The notes below the pieces were generated by a model. That model saw only the letters and a program-made list of their open reading frames with translations, did not search any database and was not told the DNA's origin. Below are positions 14,216 through 28,056 of a stretch of DNA of 34,437 nt, piece after piece (within the stretch, counting starts at the first letter, position 1; every line of letters begins with the position of its first letter). A program made the position numbers and the translations under genes. This DNA comes from a virus. Location: IMG/VR virus record IMGVR_UViG_3300036791_000806, positions 1 through 34,437 of that record; one strand, written 5' to 3'.

Positions 14216-14671
14216 ATGAAGCGCATTGACCGGAAGGCCGCATTCCTGAAGGCGTACCGGATCACGGGCACCATCAGGGGCGCCTCGAAGGCGTGCCGGC
14301 AGGACGAGAGTGTTCACTACGCATGGCTCAAGAGCGACCCCAATTACCGCGTGGCGTTCGATGCCACGCAGGACGAGATCGGGCAGGTGCTCGAGGACGA
14401 GGCCGTGCGGCGCGCGCACGAGGGCGTCAAGCGCACGATGTACTACAAGGGGAAGCCGTTACACAACGGCCGGAAGATTGCCTACGAGGTCGAGTACTCC
14501 GACCAGCTACTCCTGGCGCTACTGAAGCGCTTCCGGCCCGAGAAGTATCGCGAGCGCACGACGACCGAGCACACGGGCTCGATCAACCTGGTCGAGCGGC
14601 TCACGGCCGCCCGCCAGAGGCTGATTGCGATGAAACGCGATGATACCGACAAGCCCACTGGAACTGCCTGA
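14216..14671 (+). CDS. terS: Terminase small subunit
   Basis: Start ATG 14216, 151 residues. An N-terminal helix-turn-helix-like region (FLKAYRITGTIRGASKACRQ) is followed by a tryptophan helix (HYAWLKSDPNYRVAF), a central helical oligomerisation part (EIGQVLEDEAVRRAHEGVK), a beta-hairpin (YKGKPLHNGRKIAYEV) and SDQLLLALLKRFRPEKYRER. This HTH-plus-S-D-x-LL...P-x-KYRER pattern is typical of many phage small terminases, which recognise the packaging site. The 3' end overlaps the large-subunit gene by 32 bases, and the gene order is the usual one. Confidence 0.85.
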   Translation: MKRIDRKAAFLKAYRITGTIRGASKACRQDESVHYAWLKSDPNYRVAFDATQDEIGQVLEDEAVRRAHEGVKRTMYYKGKPLHNGRKIAYEVEYSDQLLLALLKRFRPEKYRERTTTEHTGSINLVERLTAARQRLIAMKRDDTDKPTGTA

Positions 14672-16139
14672 TATCGCGCTGATCGAGGAGATCGCGCAGT
14701 TCAAGGACGATCCGCTGGGCTTCACGCTATGGGCGTTTCCCTGGCTCGAGAAAGGACCGCTCGAGGATTACAGCGGCCCGGATGACTGGCAGCGGGAACT
14801 GCTCGCCGATATCGGGAGCGAAGTGCGCCGCCACGGCTTTAACGGCATGGATGCCGTACTACCGATCCGCGAAGCCATCTCGTCAGGACATGGGATTGGC
14901 AAGAGCACGCTGTGCGGCATGCTCACGTGCTGGATCATGTCCACCAGGCCGAACTCGCAGGGCACGATCACCGCGAACACCTACCCGCAGCTCCAAACGA
15001 AGACCTGGCCCGCAATCCTCAAGTGGATGCGCCTGTGCATCACGTCCCACTGGTTCCAGCTCGGCGTGCAGAGAATCTTCGCGAAGGCCGCCCCCGAGAG
15101 TTGGTTCGTCTCCGCGCAGACCTGCCGCCGCGAAAACTCCGAGGCCTTCCACGGCCAGCACGCCGCGCGCTCGACGTCCTGGTACCTGTTCGATGAGGCC
15201 TCGGCAATCCCCGACGAGATCTGGGCCGCGGCCGAGGGCGGCCTGACCGACGGCGAGCCGATGATCTTCGCGTGGGGCAACCCCACGCGCAACTCGGGCA
15301 AGTTTCACCGCATCGTGTTCGGCAGCGAGCGCGACCGCTGGAAGCAGCGCGTCATCGACAGCCGCAATTGCCGCTTCACCAACAAGACGCTGCTCGAGGA
15401 GTGGATCGCCGATTACGGAGAGGACTCCGACTTTGTCCGGGTCCGCGTCCGCGGAATCGCGCCGCGGGCGGGCGAGCTGCAGTTCATCGACCAGGACAGG
15501 ATTTGGAACGCGCAGCAGCGCGAGGCGTCGAGCTTCCCGGATGACCCGCTGATCGCGGGCTTCGATGTGTCGGGCGGCGGCGCCGCGTGGAACGTCATCA
15601 GCTTCCGCCGGGGTCTGGACGCGCGCACGATCCCGGCCATCCGGATACCGGGGGAGCAGACGCGGGAGCGCTCGGCGATGGTCGCGAAGCTGGCCGAGAT
15701 TCTGGCCGATAAGCGGACGAGCTTCAAGGTCTCGATGATGTTCGTCGATTCGGCGTTCGGCGCGCCGTACGTCGAGCGCCTGAAGTCGATGGGCTTCACC
15801 AACGTCCAGGAGGTCAATTTCGGCGCGCGGGCGCCCGACCGCCACGACGCCAACATGCGGGCCTACATGTGGCGCCGCATGAAGGAGTGGCTCGACAAGG
15901 GCGCGATCCCGGGCGACACCGTGCTCGAGAGCGATCTCACCGGTCCCGGCTATCACCTGAACCGCAGCGAGCAGCTGGTGATCGAGGGCAAGCAGGAAAT
16001 GCAAAAGCGCGGCGTGGCGAGCCCGGACCAGGGGGACAGCCTGGCGCTGACATTCGCCGCGCATGTCGCGCCGGTGGACGCGCCCTCGTCTCCCGAGCAG
16101 CGTTTCATCGGCGGCGCGGTGGGGACTTGGATGGGGTAA
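14640..16139 (+). CDS. terL: Terminase large subunit (ATPase and nuclease)
   Basis: A 499-residue packaging motor. Walker A is SGHGIGKST (residues 82-90) and Walker B is SWYLFDEAS (180-188, acidic pair Asp185/Glu186). The nuclease half has GFDVSGGG (Asp309), MMFVDSAFGAP (Asp370) and SPDQGDSLAL (Asp466), the three metal-binding acidic residues of the RNase H-like fold. It packages DNA into the procapsid through the portal. The length is ordinary for headful or cos terminases. The start at ATG 14640 overlaps the small-subunit gene. Confidence 0.96.
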   Translation: MIPTSPLELPDIALIEEIAQFKDDPLGFTLWAFPWLEKGPLEDYSGPDDWQRELLADIGSEVRRHGFNGMDAVLPIREAISSGHGIGKSTLCGMLTCWIMSTRPNSQGTITANTYPQLQTKTWPAILKWMRLCITSHWFQLGVQRIFAKAAPESWFVSAQTCRRENSEAFHGQHAARSTSWYLFDEASAIPDEIWAAAEGGLTDGEPMIFAWGNPTRNSGKFHRIVFGSERDRWKQRVIDSRNCRFTNKTLLEEWIADYGEDSDFVRVRVRGIAPRAGELQFIDQDRIWNAQQREASSFPDDPLIAGFDVSGGGAAWNVISFRRGLDARTIPAIRIPGEQTRERSAMVAKLAEILADKRTSFKVSMMFVDSAFGAPYVERLKSMGFTNVQEVNFGARAPDRHDANMRAYMWRRMKEWLDKGAIPGDTVLESDLTGPGYHLNRSEQLVIEGKQEMQKRGVASPDQGDSLALTFAAHVAPVDAPSSPEQRFIGGAVGTWMG

Positions 16140-16147
16140 GTGATCTG

Positions 16148-16897
16148 ATGCTATTAGAGCGCACTCGACCTCCGCAAACACGCGAAAGATGGCTAGCCGC
16201 GATGACGGATCACCTGTGTCCGCTGATCGAGTCGATAGGCCTGAAATTGCCTTCTCGACTCCATATCGAGTATGACCTCATTGAATATGCGCGAGAGCGG
16301 ACAAAAGCAATAGGTCACTGCCTCCACGGGGATGGAAACCGAGACGGTAACCCACAAATTTATATTTCACCGGACTTGAATGATCCCGTGAAAATCGCGG
16401 AAGTGATCCTGCATGAACTCCTGCATGCCGCGCTTCCGATCAGAGTGAATCACGGCCAGCCTTTCGGTCAATACGCAAAACGGCTGGGTATTCGCATGAT
16501 GTCAACTGACGGAGTAACCCGGGCCACAGCGAAGCTGGACAACCATTTCAGATTTCTCATTGGCCTCATCGGTGATTACCCGCCTCCGCCCAAGATGTCG
16601 GATCCGACCACTATGCCAGAATCAGCGGATTATCCGCGCATGCTTTTTCATCGCACTAAGCCGCCAATAATCGTACATGGGAGAGCGAGCGAGGCTGCTT
16701 TCGGTAAGGAATGGGCGCGTTCACCTTGGCCTCAGGATGAGGCGTCACCGCAGGAGATCGATTGGGCTGGGGCATGGTTGAAGGGTCAAGGATTCCCCAA
16801 GACCTACTGGCACCGCGATACCGGCGAACGGCGGACCGTCCGCAATCCCACTGAAGAGAGGATTTTCGAAGGCAGTCTGCTTTGGCTTTTGGTGTAA
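16148..16897 (+). CDS. SprT-like zinc metallopeptidase fused to a YPR-FHR module
   Basis: I start at ATG 16148 (249 residues); sequence upstream in this frame is a shadow of the terminase. The N-terminal half has an HExxH site in EVILHELLHAALPIRVNHG (HELLH at 89-93, possible third ligand His102), as in SprT-like metallopeptidases. Residues 161-189 are DYPRMLFHRTKPPIIVHG... FGKEW, a module also found in the proteins at 22719 and 23048. The C-terminal end (WLKGQGFPKTYWHRDTGERR) is unassigned. It may cleave a host or capsid protein; the fused module suggests a virion-associated role. Enzyme activity is inferred from the motif only. Confidence 0.8.
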   Translation: MLLERTRPPQTRERWLAAMTDHLCPLIESIGLKLPSRLHIEYDLIEYARERTKAIGHCLHGDGNRDGNPQIYISPDLNDPVKIAEVILHELLHAALPIRVNHGQPFGQYAKRLGIRMMSTDGVTRATAKLDNHFRFLIGLIGDYPPPPKMSDPTTMPESADYPRMLFHRTKPPIIVHGRASEAAFGKEWARSPWPQDEASPQEIDWAGAWLKGQGFPKTYWHRDTGERRTVRNPTEERIFEGSLLWLLV

Positions 16898-16915: not shown

Positions 16916-17077
16916 ATGGCAAAAAACGATAACGGCAACGACAAGGACATGAAGACCGGACGTCCTCCGAGGGACGAACAGACGAAGGCGCTCCAGAAGG
17001 CGCACGGGACGCCGGTCCGGCAGGCAACGCTGCCGCCCTACATCGGCAAGGACGCGATGCCCGGCGAGAAGGACTGA
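16916..17077 (+). CDS. Small charged protein, function unknown
   Basis: ATG 16916 with GAGAGG upstream, giving 53 residues. The sequence is very polar (MAKNDNGNDKDMKTGRPPRD) and ends PYIGKDAMPGEKD. It is probably disordered. No family recognised, and its reality rests on start quality and operon spacing. Confidence 0.5.
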   Translation: MAKNDNGNDKDMKTGRPPRDEQTKALQKAHGTPVRQATLPPYIGKDAMPGEKD

Positions 17078-18364: not shown

Positions 18365-20545
18365 GTGCCCCGTAAACAGTCCGAGGAAGACGTCCTAGCG
18401 ACCGCACGCGAGCGCTTCCGGCTCGCGCGCACCGCCGAGGAGGAGATCCGCAGGGAGGCCCGCATCGACCTGGAGTTCTGCGCCGGGAACCAGTGGGAGC
18501 AGGAGGACCGCGACCGCCGCATGCAGGGCGGACACCGCCGGCCGTGCCTCACCTTCAACAAATTGAGCGGCCCGCTCAATATGACCGCGAACGACGCGCG
18601 CCTGAATACGCCCGGCATCGAAGTGCACCCCGTCGATTCCGACGGAGACCCCGATACCGCAAAGGTCATCCAGGGCATGATCAATCACATCCAGGAGGTC
18701 AGTAAAGCCGACGAGGTTTACGAGACCGCGATCGAGCAATCGGCCTCCGGATCGTTCGGCTACTTCCGCGTGGGCAGCCGGTACTGCGGCGCCCGGAGCT
18801 TCGATCAGGAGCTGCGCATCGAGCGCGTGCTCGACCCCTTCACGATCTATATCGACCCCTTCGCACGGGAGTCCACCAAGAGCGACATGCGGTGGGCATT
18901 CGAACTCGAATTCATTCCGCGCGACGACTACGAGCGCGAGTACGGCGAATCGGCCGTTACGCAGATGAATTTCTACGACCACGGGGTAAATCCGGCCCCG
19001 GACTGGATCAGCCGGGAGGGCGTGCAGATCGCGAGGTACTGGGACGTCTCGATAGAAAACCACACCCTGGTCGCGATCGAGTGGCCCGACGGAAAGATCA
19101 CCAACATGCTGAAAGAGGAGGTCCCTGGCGACCTCCCGGACGGCCTCAAGTTCGCGACCGGCCCCGATGGTAAGCCGATCGAGCGGGACACCGAGATCCG
19201 CCGGATCACCGTCCGGAAGATCAACGGCATCGAGATCCTCGAAGAGACCGAGTGGCCCGGCCAGTGGGTCCCGATCCTGCCGGTGCTCGGCAAGGAGATG
19301 TATGTCGCGGGCAAGCGGTACCTGTTTTCGCTGGTCCGCTTCGCGCGCGATGCGCAGCGCCTGTACAACTTCTACCGCTCGGCAGAGGCCGAGACCGTGG
19401 CGCTCGGGACCAAGGCGCCCTGGGTGGGCGTGAAGGGCACGTTCAAAGACTCGAGGTGGGCCACGGCGAACACTACCAACTGGGCGTACCTCGAGTACGA
19501 GCCGATGGACATCGCGGGGCAGCCGGCGCCGGCGCCCATGCGGAATACGTTTGAGCCGCCCATCCAGGCGCTCTCGGCCGGCGCCATGCAGGCCTCTGAC
19601 GATATCAAGGCCACGACCAACGTCTTCGATGCATCGCTCGGCGCCATGGAGAACGACAGCTCGGGCATCGCGATCCAGCGCAGACAGACTCAATCGAGCC
19701 TGTCGAATGTCCACTTTGTCGACAACCTGAACCGCGCGATCCGCCAGGCCGGCGTGATCCTCACCGATCTGATCCCGAAGATCTACGACACCCCTCGCGA
19801 GGTGCGGATCCTGGGTGAGGACCGCAAACAGCAGATCGTCAAAGTCAACCAGGCCTACGTCGATGACAAGGGCATCGGCCGCTGTTATGACCTCGCCAAT
19901 GGCCAGTATGACGTCACGATCACGACCGGCCCCTCGTATCCGACGCAGCGCCAGCAGGCCTTCGACATGCTCACCAAGATGGCGCAGGCATACCCGCAGA
20001 TCATGTCGATCGCGGGCGACGTCATTTTCTCTAATGCCGATTTCCCGGGCGCCGATAAGCTCGCCGACCGCCTGCGCAAGACCCTCCCGCCGGGATTGCA
20101 GGACCCCGAGGAGGGGCAGCCGCAGATCCCGCCGGCCGCGGCCGCGCAGATGCAGCAGATGGCGCAGACCATCGATCAGTTGACTCAGGTGGTCAACGAG
20201 CAGAGCGACGAGATCCGCTCGCGCCGCGTCCGCTCGGAGTCGGAGGAGCGCGTCGAGCAGATGAAGATCGAGTCCTCCGACCGCCAGGCGGCCATGAAGG
20301 CGCAGGTCGACCTGATCGAGGCCGAGATCAAAGCGAAGTCGACCGAAGATATCGTCTTGTTGCGCGCGCAGCTCGCGTCGCTGCAGCAGCAGATCGGGGG
20401 CATGGCAAGCGGCCAGGCCGCGGCCGCATCGCAGCCGCCGCCGATCCCCGTCCCGCCGCTCGCCCCGGTGCCCCTCGCGGCAGCGGCCGGCATTCCGCCA
20501 GTCGCGATGCCGCCGGCAGCGGGCGGGCCGCCCGCTGGCCCGTAA
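18365..20545 (+). CDS. Portal protein (P22 gp1-like)
   Basis: GTG start at 18365, 726 residues, close to the 725 of P22 gp1. The order of features matches P22-type portals: a helical start, FCAGNQWEQEDRD, RPCLTFNKLSGPL, ERVLDPFTIYIDPFA, the VPILPVLGKEM and LVRFARDAQRLYNFYRSAEA region, and GIAIQRRQTQSSL followed by FVDNLNRAIRQAG. The C-terminal third is low-complexity with Gln/Ala/Pro repeats, like the P22 barrel tail but more disordered. It forms the dodecameric ring through which DNA enters and leaves. A 1027-residue frame on the other strand is a shadow of this GC-rich gene. Confidence 0.92.
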   Translation: MPRKQSEEDVLATARERFRLARTAEEEIRREARIDLEFCAGNQWEQEDRDRRMQGGHRRPCLTFNKLSGPLNMTANDARLNTPGIEVHPVDSDGDPDTAKVIQGMINHIQEVSKADEVYETAIEQSASGSFGYFRVGSRYCGARSFDQELRIERVLDPFTIYIDPFARESTKSDMRWAFELEFIPRDDYEREYGESAVTQMNFYDHGVNPAPDWISREGVQIARYWDVSIENHTLVAIEWPDGKITNMLKEEVPGDLPDGLKFATGPDGKPIERDTEIRRITVRKINGIEILEETEWPGQWVPILPVLGKEMYVAGKRYLFSLVRFARDAQRLYNFYRSAEAETVALGTKAPWVGVKGTFKDSRWATANTTNWAYLEYEPMDIAGQPAPAPMRNTFEPPIQALSAGAMQASDDIKATTNVFDASLGAMENDSSGIAIQRRQTQSSLSNVHFVDNLNRAIRQAGVILTDLIPKIYDTPREVRILGEDRKQQIVKVNQAYVDDKGIGRCYDLANGQYDVTITTGPSYPTQRQQAFDMLTKMAQAYPQIMSIAGDVIFSNADFPGADKLADRLRKTLPPGLQDPEEGQPQIPPAAAAQMQQMAQTIDQLTQVVNEQSDEIRSRRVRSESEERVEQMKIESSDRQAAMKAQVDLIEAEIKAKSTEDIVLLRAQLASLQQQIGGMASGQAAAASQPPPIPVPPLAPVPLAAAAGIPPVAMPPAAGGPPAGP

Positions 20546-20551
20546 GAGTTT

Positions 20552-21493
20552 ATGACCGAAGAAGCAGTAGAGGGAACGACGACCGAAACCACCACTGATC
20601 CGGGAGTAGTGGAAGCCCCAACGGACTTCCGCGAATTCGTGAAGTGGCGCACCACGGGTGAGCTTCCCAAGACCAGTGACAAGACCGATACCACCTCCGC
20701 GGCCGCGGAAGAAACCCCGCCGGCCAAAACCGAACCGGACTCGGAAACGGAAGACCCTCAGGAGCCAGAGGAAGAAGAAGGCGAAGAAACCACTGACGAC
20801 GGGACACCGCGGAGACGCGGGGGATCGCGCCAGCGGAAGATCGATCGCCTGACCCGTGAAGTCGAGGAATTGAAGCGCCAGGTCCAACAGCCGGCGCCCG
20901 CGCCCCAGCCGGCAGCCGCGCAGGCGGCGCCCAGCGGTAGGCCTAAACTCGAGAACTTCGAAACCCTGGAAGCCTACCAGGAAGCGCTTACCGACTGGAA
21001 GCTGGACGAGCGGGAGCGGGTGCGCCGGGAAGCCGAAACGCAGCGTCTCGAAAGAGAGCGGGTCGATCAGTTGCAGACCGACTGGTCGAAACGCGAGAAG
21101 ACTGCGAAGCGGGGGCATTCCGATTACGACGATGTGGTCGGAAGCGTAGCGGTACCGCCCGGCCCCGGTGTTGTGGCCATGCGCCAGGCACTGCTCGAGG
21201 ACGACGCCGGCGCCGAGGTGCTTTACTACCTCGGCAAACACCCCGCGGAGCTGAAGCGCATCGTCGCGCTTACGCCCCTCGGCGCCGTAAAAGAAACCGG
21301 CAAACTGCTTGCTCAATTCCAATCTTCCCCGGCCCCTGAAAACGGCAAACCGAAGATATCGAGCGCACCGCGCCCGCCGTCGCCCGTATCGCGCCCCGCC
21401 AAAACGTCGAGTGATTCTATCGACGACCCGGACGTACAACGCGATTTCAAGCGATGGAGCCGCGCGAGAGAGGCGCAATTAAAGGGAAGATAA
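20552..21493 (+). CDS. Scaffolding protein
   Basis: A 313-residue, acidic protein (P22 gp8 is 303). An acidic disordered N-terminus (EPEEEEGEETTDDG) is followed by a charged coiled-coil (RKIDRLTREVEELKRQV), a Pro/Ala linker, a second helical part (DERERVRREAETQRLERERV) and a C-terminal region with a basic end (DFKRWSRAREAQLKGR), suited to bind coat protein. The position between portal and coat is the conserved place. Its TAA is immediately followed by the coat GTG. Assigned by position and composition. Confidence 0.85.
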   Translation: MTEEAVEGTTTETTTDPGVVEAPTDFREFVKWRTTGELPKTSDKTDTTSAAAEETPPAKTEPDSETEDPQEPEEEEGEETTDDGTPRRRGGSRQRKIDRLTREVEELKRQVQQPAPAPQPAAAQAAPSGRPKLENFETLEAYQEALTDWKLDERERVRREAETQRLERERVDQLQTDWSKREKTAKRGHSDYDDVVGSVAVPPGPGVVAMRQALLEDDAGAEVLYYLGKHPAELKRIVALTPLGAVKETGKLLAQFQSSPAPENGKPKISSAPRPPSPVSRPAKTSSDSIDDPDVQRDFKRWSRAREAQLKGR

Positions 21494-22708
21494 GTGTCCA
21501 CTAACACCCTCCTGACGAGTCAGGTCATCACAAATGAACTCCTGCGGCGCTTCAAAAACAACCTCGGGTTTTCGGGCGCCGTCTCTCATATCTGGGACGA
21601 CAAGTACGCGGTGGAAGGCGCGAAAATCGGCGACACGCTGAGGCTCCGCGACCCCGTGATGCTGGTCGCGGCCGACGGCCCGGTCATGACCCCGCAGAAC
21701 GTCGGCGAAAATCAGAAAGTCCTGCAATTGAACAAACAGAAAGTGGTCGGTTTCGCGTTCACGTCGAAAGACCTGACACTCTCGATCGACAATTTTTCCG
21801 CCCGCTACCTCGACAGCGCGTCCGTCGCTCTCGCCAATGCCATCGATATCGATGGGCTGACGATGGCGGATTCGACTGTCGGCAATTTCGTCGGCACCGC
21901 CGGCACGCCTCCCACGGTTAGCGACATCTTCTGGCAGGCCGGCGAGATGCTGGACACGAACAGCGCGCCCATGGACGGCAAGCGCACCATGTGCATCCCT
22001 CCCAAAATTCAGACCACAGCGCTCAAGATTTTCCAAGGCCTGTTCCAATCGAGCTCCCAGGTCAAACAGCAGTATGAGCGCGGCCGCATGGGCGTCATGG
22101 GCGGCTTCGAATGGGTCATGGACCAGAACTGCCGGGCCCATAACAACGGGCCGGAGGGCGGGGCTCCGCAGGTTGGTGCCGCCAACCAGACCGGATCGAC
22201 CCTGGCAGTGACCGGATTCACCGCGGCAGTCGGGCCGCGCCTGAATCCCGGCGACACCTTCACGATGACCAACGTCTACCGCGTGAACCGGGTCTCTGGA
22301 GACCTGAAGCAAGACCTGATGCAGTTTGTGGTCACGGGGCCGGTAAGCTCCGACGCAACCGGCGCCGCCACGATCCCGATCTACCCGCCGATCGTAACCA
22401 CGATGCCCGGGCAGACGGTGAGCGCCTCTCCCGCCGCCGGCACGCCTCTCGTCCTCACCGGCACCCCCAACCAGGTCTACCCGACCGGCATCGCATTCCA
22501 CGAGGACGCGTTCACGATCGGCATGGCGCCGCTCGAGGTGCCGAAGAACGTTCAGTTCGGCAGCAACCAGCAGGACCCCGATACCGGGTGCGCCCTTCGT
22601 ATGGTGAGCCAATACGATATCATCAACGATCTTTTTGTCACCCGCTGCGATGCGCTTTACGGGTGGGCCGCGACGCGTCCAGAGTGGGCCTGCAAGATCA
22701 TGAGCTAG
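21494..22708 (+). CDS. Major coat protein (P22 gp5-like)
   Basis: GTG at 21494, directly after the scaffold stop; 404 residues (P22 gp5 is 430). MSTNTLLTSQVITNELLRRF and the long helix, then IGDTLRLRDPVMLVAADGPV, KQKVVGFAFTSKDLTLSIDN and an alanine-rich spine helix (SASVALANAIDIDG) agree with a P22-type HK97 fold. An inserted beta-rich section (about 225-320) is in the position of the I-domain. The end has FVTRCDALYGWAATRPEW. It forms the icosahedral shell. The assignment is strong from gene order and N-terminal pattern. Confidence 0.9.
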   Translation: MSTNTLLTSQVITNELLRRFKNNLGFSGAVSHIWDDKYAVEGAKIGDTLRLRDPVMLVAADGPVMTPQNVGENQKVLQLNKQKVVGFAFTSKDLTLSIDNFSARYLDSASVALANAIDIDGLTMADSTVGNFVGTAGTPPTVSDIFWQAGEMLDTNSAPMDGKRTMCIPPKIQTTALKIFQGLFQSSSQVKQQYERGRMGVMGGFEWVMDQNCRAHNNGPEGGAPQVGAANQTGSTLAVTGFTAAVGPRLNPGDTFTMTNVYRVNRVSGDLKQDLMQFVVTGPVSSDATGAATIPIYPPIVTTMPGQTVSASPAAGTPLVLTGTPNQVYPTGIAFHEDAFTIGMAPLEVPKNVQFGSNQQDPDTGCALRMVSQYDIINDLFVTRCDALYGWAATRPEWACKIMS

Positions 22709-22718
22709 GAGGAATAAC

Positions 22719-23051
22719 ATGGCAACCACACCACAAACGCCAGAACCGCAGTTGGCACCGCCGCCGAAAGAGCCCACGCCGCTCGATCCGCCGGTCATCT
22801 ACTACAACCGGAAGTGGCGAACGCCGCCGCTCATCGTCAACACGCAGGAGTGGGCCGATTCGCTCGATCCCGCGGAATGGACGACGAACCCGCCGCCGGC
22901 CGCGGCCGCTTCCGCGTACCCGAAGCTCTTCTTCAATATCAACGTCTCGCCCAAAGTCGTCGACAATGCCGACGAAGAGAAGGCGCTCGGCGGGGACTGG
23001 CGGGAGTTCACTCTTCCGCAGGCCCTGATCAAGGCCGCCAGCGGTAAATGA
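22719..23051 (+). CDS. Small virion-type protein with two YPR-FHR modules
   Basis: A 110-residue protein with an excellent AGGAGGA site five bases before ATG, directly after the coat gene. Residues about 25-54 (YYNRKWRTPPLIVN ... EW) and 66-95 (YPKLFFNINVSPKVVDNADE ... GGDW) look like two divergent copies of a module also seen in the 16148 and 23048 proteins. The position suggests a capsid decoration or stabilising protein. A Pro-rich head precedes the modules. No named family is assigned. Confidence 0.75.
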   Translation: MATTPQTPEPQLAPPPKEPTPLDPPVIYYNRKWRTPPLIVNTQEWADSLDPAEWTTNPPPAAAASAYPKLFFNINVSPKVVDNADEEKALGGDWREFTLPQALIKAASGK

Positions 23052-23335
23052 GACCGGACCCCGACTTTCCGCGAATGATGTTTCACCGGAGCAAACAACC
23101 GGTTATCGTTCACTCGCAGGACGAACTCGACGCGCTCGGAAGCGAGTGGTCTACCCGGCTCTTCACGGGCGAAGAGCCGGAGCAGCCGGAAGCCGAAGAG
23201 CGGCCGGAACCCGAAGAGCAGCCCGAAGAGGAGCCGAAACCGGAACCCATAGTAGAACATCCGAAACGCAAACCGCCCCACCGAAAGGGGCAAACCTCAA
23301 CCTCTAACAGCAGAAAAAGTCGAAAGGGAAATTAA
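23048..23335 (+). CDS. Small protein with one YPR-FHR module and acidic/basic tail
   Basis: A 95-residue protein coupled by ATGA to the gene before. Residues 6-34 hold the module (DFPRMMFHRSKQPVIVHS ... GSEW). The second half is low-complexity: acidic Glu/Pro repeats (EQPEAEERPEPEEQPEEEP) and then a basic end (PKRKPPHRKGQTSTSNSRK). Such a mix suggests a disordered tail binding capsid or DNA. Virion role inferred from location only. Confidence 0.7.
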   Translation: MRPDPDFPRMMFHRSKQPVIVHSQDELDALGSEWSTRLFTGEEPEQPEAEERPEPEEQPEEEPKPEPIVEHPKRKPPHRKGQTSTSNSRKSRKGN

Positions 23336-23904: not shown

Positions 23905-24963
23905 ATGTCTATCTCCGGCACTGATCTGATTCACTCGTCGTTCCGCCTGATCGGCGCCATCGCCGCGGGCGAGACGCTCGAGACCAACGAGCTGAACGAC
24001 GCCCTGGTCTCGCTCAACCAGATGCTCGCCGGCTGGTCGGCCGAAAAGCTGACCGTCTACGCGATCAAGAAGGAGACCTTCCCACTGTCGGGGACTCAGT
24101 CCTACACGATGGGTCCGAGCGGCACCTTTGCCACCGTGCGGCCCACTCAGATAATCTCCGCGCGGGCCTCGACCGGCAATTACGGGCGGCACCTCGATAT
24201 CGTCGACGCCGACACCTGGACCTCGACCGTCGAGCGCGACGGCGGCATCAACCTGCCGATCAAGGCGTTCGTCGATTACGCGTTCCCCCTGGCCACCGTG
24301 TGGCTGTGGCCCATGCCCGCGGCCTCGACCCAGGTGGAGCTCTACACGATGATGGAGTACACCAGTTTTCCAGTGAGGCCCAACGATCCGGTGCACAGCT
24401 TCCAGCCGCAGCGCCTCTCCTACACGATGTCAGGCGGGGTAGGTTCGTTTACCGTGGGTCCCGGCGGCCAGTTGGCCGTGACCCGGCCGGCGCGCTGCGA
24501 CGCGATCGCGGTCTCCTTCGGCACCTACCGCCGCGAGGTCCCGATCATCTCCGCCGCCGAGTGGGCCACGCTGCTCGAACCTTCAGGGCAGCCGATTACC
24601 GTTCCCATCCAGATGTACGTGCAGTACTCGTACCCCGCAGTGACCCTTAACCTGTGGCCGGTTCCCGGCGCGGGCGGCCAGCTCGAGATCCATTCCTTAC
24701 AGGCGTTCACGCAATTGGCCTCTCTCACCGACACGGTCGACCTGCCGCCCGGATACGAGATGGCGATCCGGTACAACTTCGCGATCGCGATCCTGCCCGA
24801 ATACCCGCGATCGACAGTCGACCCGACGGTTGTGGCGCAGGCGCAAGCTTACAAGGCCTCGCTCGCGCAGTTGAATGCCGCGAACCTCCTGCCGGCGGCG
24901 CAGGGCGCGGCGCCGCAGCCCGCCGAAGCCGCCGCGCAGCCCAGAACCATGGTGACGCAATGA
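23905..24963 (+). CDS. Tail adaptor/accessory protein with duplicated domain (P22 gp4-like)
   Basis: A 352-residue protein in the gp4 position of P22 (tail adaptor under the portal). An N-terminal helical part (LNDALVSLNQMLAGWSAEKL) precedes two similar units: residues 66-155 (SYTMGPSGTF ... RPTQIISA ... LATVWLWPMPA ... VELYTMMEYTSF) and 172-272 (SYTMSGGVGSFTV ... RPARCDAIAV ... AVTLNLWPVPG ... LEIHSLQAFTQL). The end is helical. Both units match the single-unit protein at 27220-28056. The duplication is unusual for an adaptor. Assignment by position and this resemblance. Confidence 0.75.
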   Translation: MSISGTDLIHSSFRLIGAIAAGETLETNELNDALVSLNQMLAGWSAEKLTVYAIKKETFPLSGTQSYTMGPSGTFATVRPTQIISARASTGNYGRHLDIVDADTWTSTVERDGGINLPIKAFVDYAFPLATVWLWPMPAASTQVELYTMMEYTSFPVRPNDPVHSFQPQRLSYTMSGGVGSFTVGPGGQLAVTRPARCDAIAVSFGTYRREVPIISAAEWATLLEPSGQPITVPIQMYVQYSYPAVTLNLWPVPGAGGQLEIHSLQAFTQLASLTDTVDLPPGYEMAIRYNFAIAILPEYPRSTVDPTVVAQAQAYKASLAQLNAANLLPAAQGAAPQPAEAAAQPRTMVTQ

Positions 24964-27219: not shown

Positions 27220-28056
27220 ATGCCACAATTCAATGCCGCGGAATTCAACCAGGCGCTATTTGGCGGCGCGCCGCCCGCTGGTGCGCAGTGCGTCCCGGTC
27301 GGCACGGGCATCCTTTACCCCGCGCTTCGCAAAGCCGGGGTAACCATAGGACCGGGACGCACGCCGTCGCCCGCGCAGTTCCAGGACGCATTCGACGAGC
27401 TGAACCGGCTGACCGGGTCATTGAACTGCGACCGGCTTTTCATCTACACGATCGACAGCGCGCTTTATCCGCTCGACCCGCCGAAGCCCACTTACACGAT
27501 CGGCCTGTCGGACGATCCCACCGTGCTGGTGGATTTTAATGTTCCGCGCCCGCAACTGATCGAGAGCGCCAACCTCGTCACCGGCCAGTCTGGTAGCGGG
27601 GCGCTGCGTTACCCGCTCGCGATCGTGACCGACCTCCAGTGGGCCAAGATCCGTTACCAGACGCTGCCCAACACGATCCCGACGATTCTCTATAACGACC
27701 GGGCCGCCCCGGTTTCGACGCTTTACTTGTGGGGACAGCCCGCGCCTGGGCAGTCGCTCGAGCTGTTCACCTGGCACCAGGTTCCGCTGGTCCAGTCCCT
27801 GACCGACATGGCGTGCGTGCCCATGCAGTATATCGATGCCCTGGTGCTGAATCTGGCTTGCCGGATAGCGCCGCAGTTCCAGCGTCCGCTCGATCCGCTC
27901 GTGCTAGCGCAGGCGCGCGAGAGCCTGATGCGCCTCGAGTCGATCAATGCGCCGCAGCCCATTCTGGACGTGAGCGGGCTCTGCCAGGGCAGGGGATCGA
28001 GTTACAACATCTACTCCGATGACAGGTCGGGCTCGACCCTGGGGGCGAATAAGTAA
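27220..28056 (+). CDS. Second tail adaptor-like protein (single unit)
   Basis: A 278-residue protein with one unit similar to those in 23905-24963: PSPAQFQDAFDELNRLTGSL near the N-terminus, PTYTIGLSDDPTVLVDFNVP, RPQLIESANLV, STLYLWGQPAPGQSLELFTW and PLVQSLTDMACVP, with a helical end. It is directly followed by the gp10-like gene without a gap. In P22 the single adaptor gene 4 occupies this position, so this may be the genuine gp4 counterpart and the 23905 gene an additional copy. Confidence 0.72.
   Translation: MPQFNAAEFNQALFGGAPPAGAQCVPVGTGILYPALRKAGVTIGPGRTPSPAQFQDAFDELNRLTGSLNCDRLFIYTIDSALYPLDPPKPTYTIGLSDDPTVLVDFNVPRPQLIESANLVTGQSGSGALRYPLAIVTDLQWAKIRYQTLPNTIPTILYNDRAAPVSTLYLWGQPAPGQSLELFTWHQVPLVQSLTDMACVPMQYIDALVLNLACRIAPQFQRPLDPLVLAQARESLMRLESINAPQPILDVSGLCQGRGSSYNIYSDDRSGSTLGANK

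Follow-up and report, generated by a model that had tools for sequence, protein, structure and literature searches.

Why should a short protein segment be shared between a predicted metallopeptidase and two small proteins encoded beside the coat gene of a phage? The question is raised by the DNA analysed here (hereafter the window), the 34,437 bases of IMG/VR virus record IMGVR_UViG_3300036791_000806, in which a module of ~33-38 residues recurs within the late genes. Our preferred reading, held with modest confidence, is that the module serves as a capsid-anchoring segment of head-decoration proteins and has been reused to dock a peptidase, a binding role that we infer from its tie to the coat gene and from the domains to which it is joined in related phages.

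The module in the window

The late genes of the window are arranged as in P22 (Table 1). The coat protein matches records annotated as P22 coat protein in addition to PHROG 283, which places it among the P22-type major coat proteins. Two small genes follow it, the first encoding the AB protein, with two tandem modules, and the second the C protein, in which a single module precedes a charged tail. The Pro/Gly-rich protein encoded directly after these returned no PHROGs or Pfam matches and has counterparts in just 3 of 54 related loci. The gp4-like gene that closes this slot and another at 27220-28056 each match the same proteins in relatives and look related, which would fit a duplication of the head-tail adaptor gene. 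The ORF at 1197-1778, at the record's left end, reads as a putative serine recombinase (resolvase).

Table 1 Late genes and module copies of the window, with the basis on which each was named or detected.
Feature	Position (strand)	Basis or remark
Terminase	14640-16139	Position and matching genes in relatives
SprT-like metallopeptidase gene (predicted)	16148..16897 (+)	Directly after the terminase gene; two C-terminal module copies, the second probable
Module copy 1 of the SprT-like protein, class C type, DYPRMLFHRTKPPIIVHGRASEAAFGKEWARSPWP	16628..16732 (+)	Profile and phmmer
Probable fifth, degenerate copy, end of the SprT-like protein, GFPKTYWHRDTGERRTVRNPTEERIFEGSLLW	16790..16894 (+)	Leave-out profile against shuffles
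Portal	18365-20545	Position and matching genes in relatives
Scaffold	20552-21493	Position and matching genes in relatives
P22-like coat protein gene	21494..22708 (+)	PHROG 283 major head protein, E 1.4e-67
AB protein gene, two tandem modules	22719..23051 (+)	
Module copy A, AB protein	22785..22898 (+)	Family profile, E 5.8e-12 (A is among its seeds)
Module copy B, AB protein	22914..23018 (+)	Family profile, E 7.7e-17
C protein gene: one module, acidic Pro/Glu linker, basic end	23048..23335 (+)	
Module copy C, C protein	23063..23167 (+)	Family profile, E 2.3e-16
Pro/Gly-rich protein, 164 residues	23338-23832	Directly after the C protein
gp4-like gene closing the coat-module-gp4 slot	23905..24963 (+)	PHROG 637 head-tail adaptor, E 7.5e-6

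The first-pass annotation had described the segment as recurring four times in three proteins and had named a profile search as a check. Both points held: all four copies lie at or inside the positions it gave, and one profile links them, while residue-shuffled ORFs reached at best E 0.75 against the four-copy seed profile. In single-copy phmmer searches of all 655 ORFs of the window, the SprT copy found the C copy at E 2.5e-9 and B at E 0.03, and B and C found each other (B to C, E 0.001; C to B, E 0.0015). Copy A, which carries a two-residue insertion after strand 1, is weak by itself (A to C, E 0.22). The LG-x-x-W ending attributed to the segment is present in B and C and appears as FGKEW in the first SprT copy, but not in A, which has LDPAEW at that place.

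Across related phages the module falls into three classes, with the patterns YYNxKWRxPPxIV..TQEEADALDPxEWTTxPP (class A), YPKLFYNVNVPPxxV..EEKALGxxW (class B) and DYPRMMFHRTKEPVTVHSREEEDALGPEWSR (class C), and class-specific alignments were used for the scans because alignment A1 was too varied. The first SprT copy, which is of the class C type, scored 52.9 bits against a profile that excluded it, compared with 9.5 bits for the best of 5000 segment shuffles. It is identical to the phage's own C copy at 15 of 29 residues and to the nearest other class C copy at 20 of 29, the 29 residues compared being too few for a tree. A fifth copy, missed by the first-pass annotation, is probably formed by the last 35 residues of the SprT-like protein. 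Against a profile that excluded it, this segment scored 10.3 bits, a value equalled by 1 of 5000 shuffles, and as it was also not significant in the whole-ORF search, we regard it as probable rather than certain.

The product of the gene carrying these two copies is a SprT-like metallopeptidase by motif and sequence kinship, with proteolysis as its predicted activity. It contains HELLH, an HExxH zinc motif, at 16412-16426, and matches PHROG 6361 (unnamed; E 8.8e-16) and phage proteins annotated as SprT-like (tblastn, best E 1e-10). Its match to the Pfam SprT-like family (E 0.0034, 17.6 bits) lies under the curated cutoff of 25.6. An AlphaFold model of the protein alone was discarded (pLDDT 36).

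The AB protein was modelled from an alignment of 23 sequences with a mean pLDDT of 72.6. In the model, copies A and B are each predicted to form a strand hairpin and a short helix, a likeness judged by element order: strands at residues 21-30 and 38-42 and a helix at 43-48 in copy A, and strands at 69-73 and 76-81, a helix at 84-88 and a further strand at 95-97 in copy B. Foldseek searches of BFVD and the PDB with this model found nothing significant; MbtH-type chains were among its 14 non-significant matches (E 5-10), and the best VIA-align match was an unrelated chain (Z 2.6). Similarly, searches of Pfam, PHROGs, NCBIfam and the PDB found no family for the module itself, and the PDB searches no solved structure matching it. 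A word-based literature search of partial coverage did not find it either. The module thus appears to be undescribed in the family libraries searched.

The slot between coat and gp4

To what extent the module is tied to the coat gene was assessed in two collections of loci. The first comprised 54 loci fetched by the coat gene only, in the ORFs of which an iterated profile that started from the window's four copies found 137 module copies. The second came from scanning the viral collection with the module alone, which returned almost exclusively P22-like phages with one or more small genes in the coat-gp4 slot. A P22-like coat gene lay upstream in 124 of these 142 loci, 14 were cut off before the coat, and no coat was seen within the available stretch in the other four. 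A gp4-like gene followed in 133, and was missing from no locus with >2.5 kb of downstream sequence. When near-identical loci were merged, with the coat-fetched loci included, 92 groups resulted, and the order coat, module gene(s), gp4-like gene was found in all 73 that were testable. Module proteins are therefore encoded with the head genes, beside the coat, as head-decoration proteins are.

The same gene order occurs in an isolated Pseudomonas phage, PAE2, in which the module-bearing protein PAE2_6 is encoded between the coat and a tail accessory factor. This isolate was found via its coat, whereas tblastn of the window's AB and C proteins and of consensus modules against the phage collection gave no match. 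The tail of PAE2_6 after the module reads as HeH-like, and a weak PHROGs match of the protein to phrog_38661 (function unknown; E 5e-4) spans part of the module and this tail. Matches of PAE2_6 to Klebsiella Jedunavirus were dropped, the two examined sharing only the HeH-like tail. Four other P22-like coat records of the phage collection (L131-L134) contained no module by profile, which indicates that only some members of the P22-like group carry it.

Many relatives encode an additional slot protein in which a B-type module is fused to a BACON Ig-like domain. This domain scored above the Pfam cutoff in seven of the eight module-plus-Ig-type proteins tested. The plan of these proteins would be that of an anchor with a displayed domain, as expected of head decoration. 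In the window itself, neither the AB nor the C protein yielded a BACON or Ig-like domain, and in the C protein the module is followed by the charged tail. Across C proteins (n = 60), such tails contain 21% D/E and 28% P before a final stretch of 12 residues with 42% K/R. Enzymes are also joined to the module. In a P22-like Acidobacteriota prophage (L222, G214:C402:40000-58000), a Methyltransf_24 domain (E 1.7e-13) precedes a module within the coat-gp4 slot.

The SprT-like fusion lies outside that slot, in the interval between terminase and portal. It is the only module ORF with an HExxH motif, and the peptidase domain was found in none of the 54 relatives. In 20 relatives available as whole records, every module match fell within the coat-gp4 region, which makes the peptidase fusion exceptional. 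Chimeric assembly is an unlikely source of it, because the two flanks of the gene, the terminase and the gene at 16916, both have counterparts in the same relatives, for example L007, which has no SprT-like gene between them.

Module proteins of bacterial genomes

Within bacterial genomes the module is rare, being present in 2 of 297, 4 of 399 and 5 of 257 genomes in overlapping samples, and several of these matches are prophages. Four P22-like prophages of Acidobacteriota (L222, L227, L235 and L236) carry it in the usual slot, and since the coat of one such prophage is 48.6% identical to that of the window, the host phylum of the window phage may be Acidobacteriota.

A few chromosomal Acidobacteriota proteins also bear the module, at or near the N-terminus, and no phage structural genes were seen near them. 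For example, a protein of a member of the Acidobacteriia (L126 5722-7134) has a tandem pair of modules followed by a TIR domain at the C-terminus (TIR_2, E 4e-6, 0.2 bits under the cutoff), and its gene adjoins an AbiEi/AbiEii pair. The same genome encodes a second TIR (58% identity) on a different, longer protein. A tandem-module relative in another Acidobacteriota genome (L234 2383-3768) has a TAG stop inside its second module, a C-terminal part unlike TIR, and an integrase gene nearby. A third protein (L226 7464-7973) combines an N-terminal module with a C-terminal hydrophobic helix and is encoded near a ribonucleotide reductase-like gene, in surroundings where no phage structural genes were seen. 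Lastly, a small integrated element with a phage-type integrase and an AAA_25 ATPase (L228 3241-9903), possibly a phage satellite, also encodes a module protein.

Capsid anchoring, alternatives and known systems

As a capsid anchor, the module would be a short, independently folding segment that holds accessory proteins on the mature P22-like head; it would comprise a strand hairpin and a helix and finish close to a conserved W. The AB and C proteins would then be of head-decoration type, their modules docking on the outside of the coat lattice and the part after the module projecting outward, either as an acidic Pro/Glu arm tipped with basic residues (C proteins) or as a BACON Ig-like domain (relatives). 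In the window phage, a SprT-like metallopeptidase would have acquired a class C module and probably a degenerate second one, and would be kept by this means on the head or assembling head and could be present in virions. The first-pass annotation had likewise suggested docking to the capsid or to a partner. The coat-gene tie in every testable group, the BACON carriers and the methyltransferase bearer lend this suggestion strong circumstantial support, but the capsid need not be the partner everywhere, since chromosomal bacterial proteins carry the module, and a wider adaptor role is possible. Against the anchor we count the position of the SprT-like gene outside the slot and the lack of a peptidase in the 54 relatives, the AB and C proteins without an Ig-like domain, the chromosomal Acidobacteriota modules and the lack of a structure match. 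We also count against it that small genes in the coat-gp4 interval could be those of assembly factors.

This last point can be taken further. If the binding partner of the module were the gp4-like head-completion protein, or further module proteins, rather than the coat, AB and C would be assembly or completion factors to which the peptidase is recruited. That the slot ends at a gp4-like gene in all testable groups agrees with such a role, as does the presence of at least two module copies in 62 of the 92 groups, which would permit copy-copy contacts. However, a single copy was seen in the remaining 30, some of them fragmentary loci, and the BACON fusions are a better fit to surface display, so we consider this explanation unlikely. 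The bacterial carriers raise another, namely that the module mediates protein interactions generally, as an adaptor shared by soil bacteria and phages, with P22-like phages as one user lineage and the coat link saying little about the partner. The chromosomal proteins, from the TIR protein beside AbiEi/AbiEii and its stop-interrupted tandem relative to the hydrophobic-helix protein and the integrase-bearing element, speak for this account. Set against them are the rarity of the module in bacteria outside P22-like prophages and its near-universal linkage to the coat in a collection scanned by the module alone, and the account is in our view quite unlikely.

The anchor reading might also fail for the peptidase only, if the SprT copy were a passive remnant of shuffling at a variable site and the enzyme acted alone, for example on host proteins. 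The terminase-portal gap is indeed variable, ranging from 168 to 3403 bases in relatives, and SprT-like domains are common among phages without the module. Yet the first SprT copy retains the core pattern of the family (YPRMLFH, G, W), and a chance fusion is made less likely by the methyltransferase that bears the module in another prophage; the passive remnant thus seems a distinctly improbable explanation. More doubtful still is an extension of capsid docking to both sides of the infection, whereby phages would hang Ig-like domains and enzymes on their heads through the module and the tandem-module TIR protein of Acidobacteriota would bind P22-like heads or coat through the same module, triggering signalling.

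The libraries searched lack the module, although it occupies a defined gene position in many P22-like phages. Should it prove to be a capsid anchor, it would represent a small natural tag that has been joined to Ig-like domains, to a peptidase and to a methyltransferase, and the cargo of such phage heads could be predicted from sequence and tested directly. The chromosomal TIR-module protein similarly suggests a specific, hypothetical way in which some bacteria might detect these phages. In staphylococci and streptococci, major capsid proteins activate Thoeris TIR proteins (PMC12578639), and by analogy a capsid-sensing role of the Acidobacteriota protein is conceivable. The likeness lies in a TIR domain possibly tied to capsid recognition; the available part of that report describes no such module for the Thoeris proteins, and the function of the Acidobacteriota TIR is putative.

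Among phage proteins, the SprT-like proteases of Microbacterium, Arthrobacter and Bordetella phages (PHROG 6361) share the peptidase domain with the window protein at ~28-37% identity, including HExxH. The window protein differs in its added C-terminal module and in the place of its gene, in the late structural region after the terminase. BACON (PF13004, PF19190) forms the C-terminal part of module proteins encoded by relatives. The decoration protein Dec of phage L also binds P22 heads (PMC7602432) and so decorates heads with a P22-type coat, as is proposed for the module proteins, but no Dec chain was among the PDB matches listed for the module in this comparison by sequence profile. A parallel in plan is offered by pb10 of T5, a small decoration protein with a capsid-binding N-terminal part, for which binding is proven, and an Ig-like C-terminal domain (PMC5292684), the same arrangement of anchor and Ig-like domain as in the module-BACON proteins of relatives. 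The anchor of pb10 is alpha-helical, in contrast to the strand hairpin and helix predicted for the module, no sequence match between the two was found, and the proof of binding is that of pb10 alone. In kind, the proposed element would belong with known decoration-type anchors, its fusion to an enzyme being unusual.
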